From: Pararhodobacter marinus
GTDB taxonomy: Bacteria; Pseudomonadota; Alphaproteobacteria; Rhodobacterales; Rhodobacteraceae
Assembly: GCF_003122215.1 (NCBI RefSeq)
Contig: NZ_QEYD01000010.1
Span: forward strand, 124,001 to 188,000
Direction: 5' to 3'
Length of the DNA stretch: 64,000 nt
Positions within the stretch are counted from its first letter, which is position 1. Each line of letters opens with the position of its first letter. The position numbers were made by a program, and so were the translations under genes. Positions 50,905 through 53,529 of the stretch are shown piece after piece. The notes beneath the pieces are model-generated. The model was not told where the DNA came from and did no database searches. It worked only from the letters and a program-made list of their open reading frames with translations.

Positions 50905-51110
50905 CAGGTGCGGGTGCTGAAGCTTCAGCGTCCGATAATTGGGAAGCCGGTGAAAGGCCGGCACTGCCCCCGCAACGGTAGGGAACGACAAGGTCCGGCA
51001 CAGGCCACTGGGGAAGGAGGTATCCCCCGGGAAGGCGCCGGTCACAGGGTGAAAGCCACACGTTCCAAGTCCGGAAACCAGCCCGGCATGACGTCAAACC
51101 GCGGGAGGCG
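50905..51110 (+). ncRNA. cobalamin riboswitch upstream of the Rieske oxygenase genes
   Basis: The plus strand carries the cobalamin riboswitch core in order: a GCCGG-TGAAA-GGCCGGC stem-loop then CACTGCCCCCGCAACGGTA (about 50946-50980), the B12 box GCCACTG (51004-51010) with GGGAAGG after it, and AAGTCCGGAAACCAGCC toward the 3' end (about 51066-51082). The oxygenase gene starts about 110 bp further on with no other gene between. It should lower expression of the downstream genes when cobalamin is abundant, which is unusual for this enzyme. Confidence 0.93.
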
Positions 51111-51217
51111 GTGGGGGCGATCATGCGCTGTGCCGACTTCCCGGCACGGCATTGATCCTTGCTTCCGCGCCCGCCACAGAGACTGCCGGCATCCATCCCG
51201 GCAACGGAGTACAGGCC

Positions 51218-52450
51218 ATGCGTCCAGAGGCCAGAGCACGCGACCTTCTGAACCGGCGCCAGCCGGGCCATTCCCTTGAACAGGCATTCTATACCGATGC
51301 CGATCTTTATGATCTGGATCTGGAGCGGATTTTTTACCGCGACTGGCTCTATGCCATGCCGGCCTGTTCGCTGCCCAAGCCCGGCAGCTACGTCACCCAC
51401 CGGGTCGGCGCCTACAGTCTGATCGTGGTGCGCGGTCAGGACGGCGTGATCCGGACCTTCCACAATACCTGCCGTCACCGCGGCTCGATCCTGTGCAAGG
51501 GCGCGTCGGGTCATGTGCCCAAGCTGGTCTGCCCCTATCACCAATGGACCTACGAGCTGAACGGCAAGCTGCTCTGGGCGCGCGACATGGGCCCCGATTT
51601 CGATGCCAGCAAGCATGGCCTGAAAGAGGTCCATTGCCGTGAACTGGCCGGGCTGGTCTATATCTGCCTGGCCCAGCAGGCGCCCGATTTCGACGATTTC
51701 GCTGAACGCGCCGCGCCCTATCTGGCCCCGCACGACCTGAGCAACGCCAAGATCGCGCACCAGTCGACCATCATCGAAGAGGGCAACTGGAAGCTGGTCT
51801 GGGAAAACAACCGCGAGTGCTATCATTGCGGCGGCAACCACCCCTCGCTGTGCCGCACCTTCCCCGAGGATCCGGCTGTCAGCGGCATCGAAGGGGGCGC
51901 GACACCGGCACATCTGATGGCGCATTTCAGCCGCTGTGAAGATGCCGGCTTGCCGTCGCGCTTTCATCTCTCCCAGACGGGGCAGTACCGGCTGGCACGG
52001 ATGCCACTGAAAGTGGGCGCGAAAAGCTACACCATGAGCGGCGATATCGCCGTGCGGCGCTGGCTGGGGCGTGTTCCCTTCGCCGATGCGGGATCGCTGC
52101 TGAAATTCCACTATCCGACCACCTGGAACCACTTCCTGCCCGATCACGCGATCACGTTCCGTGTAACCCCCATCGGCCCGCAACAGACCGAGGTCCAGAC
52201 CACATGGCTGGTCAACAAGGACGCGGTCGAGGGCGTGGACTACGATCTGAAGACCCTGACCGAGGTCTGGGAAGCGACCAATGACGAGGACCGGCGCGTG
52301 GTCGAGGACAACCAGCGCGGCATCAATTCCCCCGCCTACGAGCCGGGGCCGTATTCCCCGATCCAGGAAAGCGGCGTGCGGCAATTCGTCGACTGGTATT
52401 GCGACACGCTCGCCGGCCGGCTCGATCCGATCCGGGTGGCCGCAGAATGA
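51218..52450 (+). CDS. Rieske oxygenase alpha subunit, glycine betaine monooxygenase (GbcA)-like
   Basis: A 410-aa Rieske non-heme iron oxygenase. The [2Fe-2S] ligands are Cys85, His87 (CRHRGS), Cys105 and His108 (CPYHQW). The mononuclear iron site includes Glu200, His203 and His208 in [14 protein letters not shown], the spacing and wording of the GbcA/stachydrine demethylase/carnitine oxygenase group, which removes N-methyl groups from quaternary amines. It pairs with a dedicated reductase encoded next (4-bp overlap). The start at 51218 is the first ATG after the cobalamin riboswitch that gives the family N-terminus; longer in-frame starts run into the leader. Confidence 0.87.
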
Positions 52451-53529
52451 GAATCCCGCAGCCGACGATCTCGCATCCCGTCCAGGTCTGGGACGGGACG
52501 GAAATGCTGGAATGCGTCTCGGTCATCCCCGAGGCGCCCGATGTCGCAAGCTTCTGCTTCCAATCCCCCGCCGGCGCGCTGTTCTCGTATGTGCCGGGCC
52601 AGTTCCTGACGCTTGAACTGCCGGTGCCGGGGGGGCCGCTTTACCGGACGTTCACCATATCCTCGTCGCCCTCGCGTCCGATGTCGATCTCGGTCACGGT
52701 CAAGGCGCAGAAGGGCAGCCTCGGCACCCGCTGGATGCTGGATCACCTGAAACCGGGGATGCGCATCAAGGCGACCGCGCCCGCGGGAACCTTTTCCAGC
52801 CATCACCATCCGGCCGGAAAGTACCTGTTCATCTCTGCCGGTTCGGGCATCACGCCGATGATGTCGATGACGACATGGATGTTCGACATGGGACGGCCCG
52901 CCGACCTTGTCTTCGTCAATTGTGCCCGGCGTCCGTCCGAGATCATCTTCCGCAAACGGCTGGAACACATGGCCAGCCGCTTCCCCGAGATCGACCTGAA
53001 ATTCGTGGTCGAGGAAGGCGACCGCTTCCAGCCCTGGACCGGCTATCAGGGAATATTCAACCAGCTCATGCTGGGCCTCATGGCGCCCGATTACCTGGAA
53101 CGGGAAGTGTTCTGCTGCGGCCCCGCCCCTTTCATGCAGGCGGTTCGCGAAGCGCTGGCGGGGCTTGGCTTCGACATGGAGCGCTATCACCAGGAAAGCT
53201 TCCAGCCTTCGCTTGCCGCCGAGGCCGCGGATCCCGAGGCCGGGGATGTGATCCCCGACGGGGCCGCGCAGGCCGAGGTGGATTTCGCCCTTTCCGGCGT
53301 CACGCAGAGCTGCACGGAAACGGACACGATCCTGGCGACGGCGCGGGCGGCGGGGCTGAACATTCCCTCGGGCTGTACCTTCGGCGTCTGCGGCACCTGC
53401 AAGATCAGGAAAACCTCGGGCCAGGTGCACATGGTTCACAATGGCGGAATCACCGACGAGGACATCGCCGCGGGCTACGTTCTGGCCTGCTGTTCCCACC
53501 CGATCGGCAAGGTCGCGGTCGAGGTCTGA
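52447..53529 (+). CDS. ferredoxin reductase partner of the Rieske oxygenase (GbcB-like)
   Basis: A 360-aa three-domain reductase. The FAD-binding barrel carries [11 protein letters not shown] (about 66-76). An NAD-binding domain follows, beginning [14 protein letters not shown]. The C-terminal [2Fe-2S] ferredoxin domain has cysteines in [13 protein letters not shown] and LACC. This is the layout of GbcB and HcmB-type reductases, which pass electrons from NADH to the Rieske oxygenase. It is translationally coupled to the alpha subunit and followed by a strong terminator, so the riboswitch controls a two-gene unit. Confidence 0.9.

Follow-up and report, generated by a model that had tools for sequence, protein, structure and literature searches.

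Why should a cobalamin (B12) riboswitch stand before the genes of an oxygen-dependent demethylase? We addressed this question for an operon in a 64,000-nucleotide stretch of the Pararhodobacter marinus genome (contig NZ_QEYD01000010.1, positions 124,001 to 188,000; referred to as the window), in which the riboswitch precedes a Rieske oxygenase gene and a reductase gene. Our preferred answer, to which we give a probability of roughly two in three, is that the operon encodes a B12-independent, O2-dependent betaine demethylase, which is under B12 repression and backs up a corrinoid-dependent route. The features of the locus are given in Table 1.

Table 1. Sequence features of the riboswitch-preceded Rieske operon, and the second aptamer of the window
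Feature	Position in window	Strand	Evidence
Cobalamin riboswitch aptamer	50889-51100	+	RF00174, 108.7 bits, E 2.7e-26 (gathering score 31.5)
Loop L5 (CCCCCG), expected kissing-loop partner	50967-50972	+	Columns invariant in 16 aligned aptamers
Hairpin ACCGCGGGAGGCGGT, loop G-rich; putative P13/L13 in the expression platform	51098-51112	+	Predicted function
Ribosome-binding site GGAG	51206-51209	+	Read from sequence, 8 nt before ATG
Rieske oxygenase subunit, GbcA/Stc2-like quaternary-ammonium demethylase, 410 aa	51218-52450	+	Pfam Rieske, Ring_hydroxyl_A
Reductase subunit (FAD, NAD, 2Fe-2S), 360 aa	52447-53529	+	Pfam FAD_binding_6, NAD_binding_1, Fer2
Intrinsic-terminator-like hairpin and T tract	53544-53577	+	Stem site 53544-53571, 11 pairs (9 G-C), then CTTTTTGCC / CTTTTTGCCA
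Second cobalamin riboswitch aptamer	30332-30532	-	RF00174, 100.7 bits; precedes btuFCD-type B12 transporter

The initial annotation had described a full cobalamin riboswitch ahead of the oxygenase and the reductase, and the covariance model search of the window bears this out: the RF00174 match is complete (model positions 1-189, not cut off) and begins 16 nt upstream of the start first given to it. The aptamer and the oxygenase gene are separated by 117 nt, where no B12 gene, which might have been the true target, is present. The L5-L13 kissing loop is central to corrinoid riboswitches (PMC10653944), and our naming of L5 follows this paper together with recall. A hairpin of at least four pairs with CGGG in or adjoining its loop is found in 25 of 26 riboswitch-bearing leaders (12.8 expected from mononucleotide shuffles), and in many relatives a further G-rich-loop hairpin occurs immediately 5' of the ribosome-binding site. 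The leaders of L046, L052, L054, L056, L081, L093 and others contain two such hairpins, the first behind the aptamer and the second ahead of the ribosome-binding site; each is complementary to L5, and they are possibly alternative kissing partners. The fold of the leader in the window is not unusual (z -1.33). Within 50650-53700 no sigma-70-like promoter was found, and the terminator scan of the same region gave no terminator-like site from the aptamer to the ATG.

The oxygenase and reductase genes overlap by four bases, and the strong terminator noted at first behind them is recovered as a terminator-like hairpin with a T tract, having the longest stem of the three terminator-like sites in 50650-53700 (1.7 in shuffles). 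The best NCBIfam models are GbcA (NF058607) for the oxygenase, with 503.4 bits against a curated cut-off of 670, and GbcB for the reductase, with 381 bits against 500. The strict name GbcA was rejected since the cut-off is missed, and of the earlier description as GbcAB-like the family resemblance stands, but both subunits fall under the curated cut-offs and the oxygenase is 68% identical to Stc2. Specifically, it shares 67.7% identity with the Sinorhizobium meliloti oxygenase adjoining the annotated stc4, i.e. Stc2, a stachydrine demethylase. The nearest solved chains by sequence are PDB 3n0q (732 bits), presumably a Ruegeria TM1040 protein whose structure was solved without an assigned function, and 3vca (638 bits), which we take to be Stc2. 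Within the host genome the second-best relative has 33% identity over residues 17-209. The protein combines a Rieske domain and a mononuclear-iron catalytic domain with a Cys-x-x-Cys pair (C201-x-x-C204), known from some Rieske enzymes that act on quaternary ammonium compounds (PMC10952381), which agrees with membership in group V of the quaternary-ammonium Rieske oxygenases. We infer that the two genes specify a quaternary-ammonium demethylase that depends on O2 and NAD(P)H, works without B12 and most likely acts on glycine betaine.

The pairing of riboswitch and oxygenase is conserved. Relatives of the oxygenase at E <= 1e-60 are present in 75 of 295 Rhodobacteraceae genomes; 70 loci were taken with their flanks, leaving out 11 others (33-38% identity). 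A covariance model, R1, was built from 16 aptamers and searched against the 70 loci; it scores the window aptamer, which is part of its alignment, at 166.7 bits. An aptamer lies directly upstream in 26 of the 64 orthologous copies (at least 56% identity, 61 Rhodobacteraceae genomes), one of them decayed; 16 of these 26 R1 matches are by construction, while the other ten, and the new loci among those described next, are independent of the R1 alignment. Chance alone would place a same-strand aptamer in the 500 nt upstream of about 0.014 of the 64 genes, as calculated from 229 aptamers in 64 genomes with the genome size assumed to be 4.2 Mb. Moreover, among the best 80 of 596 loci from named organisms, 26 are directly preceded by a strong aptamer match (112-184 bits), and in two further loci the aptamer is decayed. 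Contigs already present in the first set account for nine of the 80 loci, of which L122, L135 and L164 have an aptamer; these nine were dropped from the tree and from the second neighbour count below. The 26 strong loci are all alphaproteobacterial and come from several orders, including Ruegeria, Sulfitobacter, Shimia, Phaeobacter, Roseibium, Hoeflea, Labrys and Rhizobium species as well as MAGs labelled Rhodospirillaceae and Rhodovibrionaceae; the oxygenase of Ruegeria sp. TM1040 has an aptamer of 148 bits. No aptamer was found upstream in the five gammaproteobacterial loci among the best 80 (L139, L143, L146, L149 and L192).

In a FastTree phylogeny covering 141 oxygenases the riboswitch label changes 18 times, compared with 42.5 in shuffles, i.e. 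the switch is inherited within clades and was gained or lost repeatedly between them. Decayed aptamers lie directly before the oxygenase at L051:7669-7866, L129:5679-5796 and L189:5741-5916; that of L051 is below the Rfam gathering score and has a changed L5 loop. These three represent riboswitch loss in progress. L129 and L189 were counted as switch-bearing on the tree and excluded from the second neighbour table.

Gene neighbourhoods differ between copies with and without the riboswitch. For the first set, neighbour genes were called by codon usage and then clustered, and as betaine-type we counted the OYE-type FMN dehydrogenase, the GcvT-type FAD dehydrogenase, SoxB, SoxD, a GbdR-like regulator and one LysR cluster; identities were checked on single members for the OYE-type, GcvT-type, SoxB and SoxD clusters, and the GbdR-like member is under its model cut-off. 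Betaine-type neighbours lie near 26 of 38 switch-free copies versus two of 26 switch copies (p 1.6e-6). The second set, searched by tblastn, gave 31 of 47 switch-free versus two of 24 switch loci (p 2.9e-6), where four of these 33 rest on weak matches (L149, 25%; L160, 37%; and the two switch loci, 28% and 25%).

These neighbourhoods bear on two other explanations. Under the same regulatory logic the substrate might be stachydrine (proline betaine) or another betaine, with an MttB paralogue for that compound as the B12-dependent partner. This would fit the 68% identity with the S. meliloti oxygenase that adjoins stc4. It would also fit the GbcA model scores, since all members of the clade, among them Stc2, reach 480-505 bits and stay under the cut-off, and OYE-type dehydrogenases are also known for N-methylproline demethylation. 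We nevertheless regard it as unlikely, since sarcosine oxidase, GbdR-like regulators and GcvT-type FAD dehydrogenases are encoded near several switch-free orthologues, a setting that points to glycine betaine.

The second explanation is that the enzyme acts in cobamide or B12-linked metabolism, or that the riboswitch is a general nutrient control without an alternative pathway. It would accommodate the three decayed leaders and those switch copies that lie in rows of riboswitch-preceded genes with split MetH genes (L055, L085 and L089). However, the pairing recurs in separate clades, and the orthologues without a riboswitch are mostly in betaine-type clusters; for the latter reason a role in cobamide synthesis was set aside, and we judge this explanation as a whole to be quite improbable.

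Some further genes near oxygenase copies deserve description. The nrdHIEF genes (class Ib ribonucleotide reductase) with an aptamer of their own are near the switch copies L055 and L078, and nrdHI, likewise with its own aptamer, is found in L089; the identity check was done on the nrd genes of L055 and the MetH of L085. The nrd-preceding aptamers close to the oxygenase are L055:7286-7478, L078:6064-6263 and L089:2734-2919, and the switch-free oxygenases of L062 and L095 are also near aptamer-preceded nrd genes (L062:12168-12360 and L095:11615-11809). In the Paracoccus loci L166, L175, L185 and L188, nrdE and nrdF are within approximately 5 kb of a switch-free oxygenase. At L055:10647-10949 and L085:7281-7583 the gene immediately following an aptamer, in the vicinity of the oxygenase and of split MetH genes, encodes a 100-aa protein; that of L085 has no NCBIfam or Pfam match.

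For a B12-independent enzyme to be an alternative, the host should also have a B12-dependent route. Its genome has four RF00174 aptamers, two of them in the window and above the Rfam threshold. The second window aptamer precedes a transporter consisting of a periplasmic binding protein and a FecCD permease (both Pfam) and an ATPase (identified by eye), and of the other two, one lies before a cbiM-type cobalt transport row and one before a cobW-cobN row. With the other three on ordinary targets, this riboswitch class is used as usual in the host and the Rieske operon is the odd target. B12 synthesis genes are present, so a lack of B12 need not be frequent. Elsewhere in the window (31760-33802, minus strand) a 680-aa frame combines a kynureninase-like class-V aminotransferase domain, whose 54 bits are under the cut-off, with a putative cyclase domain, perhaps a two-step fusion for amino-acid catabolism.

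As to B12-dependent methyltransferases and BHMT-like genes, for which the initial annotation had proposed a check, the host genome has three MttB-family genes without in-frame stops, one MtgC-like gene and three genes of the homocysteine-methyltransferase family, to which MtgE and BHMT belong. The MtgC-like protein is the single B12-binding_2 match and stands alone (MtgC is its best model, 193 bits, under the cut-off of 370); a full MetH was thus not found by the B12-binding_2 search of the host genome. The MetE family gives low scores of 55.7, 21.2 and 21.1 bits against a cut-off of 21. A single stand-alone corrinoid protein agrees with the early hint of a link to methionine synthase.

One host MttB gene adjoins an OYE-type FMN dehydrogenase gene and a LysR gene. 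This dehydrogenase is 68-70% identical to the closest ones adjoining switch-free oxygenases, and the LysR protein 51-54% identical to some of the LysR proteins adjoining them. Such dehydrogenases were counted in 54 genomes, leaving out G138, G039 and G270 (41-45% identity) and genomes G006 and G083. Among the MttB matches listed, MttB lies within 12 kb of the dehydrogenase in eight of the 54, and seven of these eight, including the host, have a switch-linked oxygenase; in the exception, G089, the oxygenase is switch-free. The oxygenase itself lies within 12 kb of the dehydrogenase in 15 of the 54 genomes, and none of these 15 copies is switch-linked (7/8 versus 0/15, p 3.3e-5). One of the 15 genomes, G091, does have a switch, but its dehydrogenase-adjoining copy is a second, switch-free one (L069). 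In 31 of the 54 genomes, again among the MttB matches listed, the dehydrogenase has neither neighbour within 12 kb. At one kind of locus MttB seems to take the place of the oxygenase, and vice versa, an argument for a common substrate.

The numbers of MttB genes point in the same direction on simple counts. Ignoring descent, genomes with the switch have a mean of 4.5 (n 26) and switch-free genomes 1.8 (n 35; p 8e-6), and the MttB type of the dehydrogenase locus (C27-type; types assigned at 65% identity or more) is present in 12 of 26 switch genomes versus three of 35 switch-free ones (p 0.0019, also ignoring descent). The MttB correlation does not reach significance once it is tested on eight phylogenetically independent pairs, where the C27-type on average goes the same way in 3.3 pairs and the other way in 0.5. 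The C27-type is absent from 14 of the 26 switch genomes, and the switch genomes G114 and G118 have one MttB gene each. Since one or more MttB genes are also present in 31 of the 35 switch-free genomes, MttB presence alone explains little, and the argument rests on the neighbourhoods and the change of neighbour.

The known corrinoid riboswitches repress, except for one newly found activating case (PMC10653944), and repression of the oxygenase by B12 is probable by analogy. Given L5 and the G-rich hairpins, the published repression and the lack of a terminator before the ATG, translational repression by cobalamin would be the likeliest mode. Transcriptional termination between aptamer and ATG was considered and rejected, no such site being found there. 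It is very improbable that the riboswitch instead activates, the oxygenase being made when B12 is present and alongside the corrinoid route: PMC10653944 provides one activating precedent but has the other known corrinoid riboswitches repress, the three other host aptamers precede ordinary targets of the repressed type, and between aptamer and ATG there is no terminator for an antiterminating P13 to relieve.

The idea in the initial annotation that the demethylase is the B12-independent alternative to a corrinoid-dependent enzyme is thus strengthened by the conserved pairing, the betaine-type clusters, the exchange with MttB and the nrd neighbours, while the substrate and the repression by B12 are parts that we infer. 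In the B12-repressed betaine demethylase model, plentiful cobalamin would probably cause the riboswitch to block oxygenase translation through an L5-L13 kissing loop at the ribosome-binding site, and betaine would then be demethylated by MttB-family methyltransferases together with the MtgC-type corrinoid protein. Scarcity of cobalamin or cobalt would lift the block and let the Rieske enzyme take over, so that betaine catabolism could continue and the single corrinoid protein would be spared for methionine synthesis. For the Alphaproteobacteria in general we lean towards a B12-controlled choice for the first step of betaine catabolism, between corrinoid-dependent methyl transfer to folate with B12 and O2-dependent oxidative demethylation without it.

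Many marine and soil bacteria carry a B12 sensor ahead of a probable betaine demethylase, which suggests that they fall back on this enzyme when B12 for their other betaine route is short. If this is true, the control of a widespread riboswitch-linked Rieske family would be explained, and the supply of B12 or cobalt would decide what becomes of the methyl groups and how much oxygen osmolyte turnover demands; as betaine is a major marine osmolyte, this supply would bear on betaine breakdown. The switch would ease the competition between betaine breakdown and methionine synthesis for one corrinoid protein, and B12-dependent switching of betaine turnover would be directly testable in roseobacters.

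How does the operon compare with known systems? Ruegeria pomeroyi uses the corrinoid-dependent MtgBCD for betaine demethylation (PMC12478193), and MtgBCD(E) of its strain DSS-3 is the proposed B12-dependent counterpart, which the host would match with its MttB-family and MtgC-like genes. In the available text of PMC12478193, 'riboswitch' appears once, in the reference list, and gbcAB is treated as an alternative pathway of other bacteria. GbcAB, the glycine betaine monooxygenase of Pseudomonas and Chromohalobacter, has the same two-subunit layout and provides the best NCBIfam models, but the subunits in the window are under the curated cut-offs and their operon has a riboswitch ahead of it. 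Stc2/Stc4 of S. meliloti is alike in oxygenase sequence and gene order; in contrast, a divergent LysR gene accompanies the S. meliloti copy, which is not directly preceded by an aptamer. B12-independent isozymes are known targets of cobalamin riboswitches (PMC2211319, PMC3766115), and a betaine Rieske demethylase is not named as a target in the available text of either paper; in the literature searched we found no report of a cobalamin riboswitch on such an enzyme, although the supplementary gene lists of PMC3766115 could hold one. Close parallels are metE and class I ribonucleotide reductase under cobalamin riboswitches, where likewise a standard aptamer precedes a B12-free enzyme and the genome has B12-dependent enzymes (candidate ones in the host) for the same task. 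The difference is that the enzyme of the window is catabolic and O2-dependent and would oxidise its substrate to formaldehyde instead of transferring a methyl group. The Rieske operon extends the known class of B12-independent alternatives under cobalamin riboswitches, a short list that, if our reading is correct, a catabolic, oxygen-dependent enzyme now joins.
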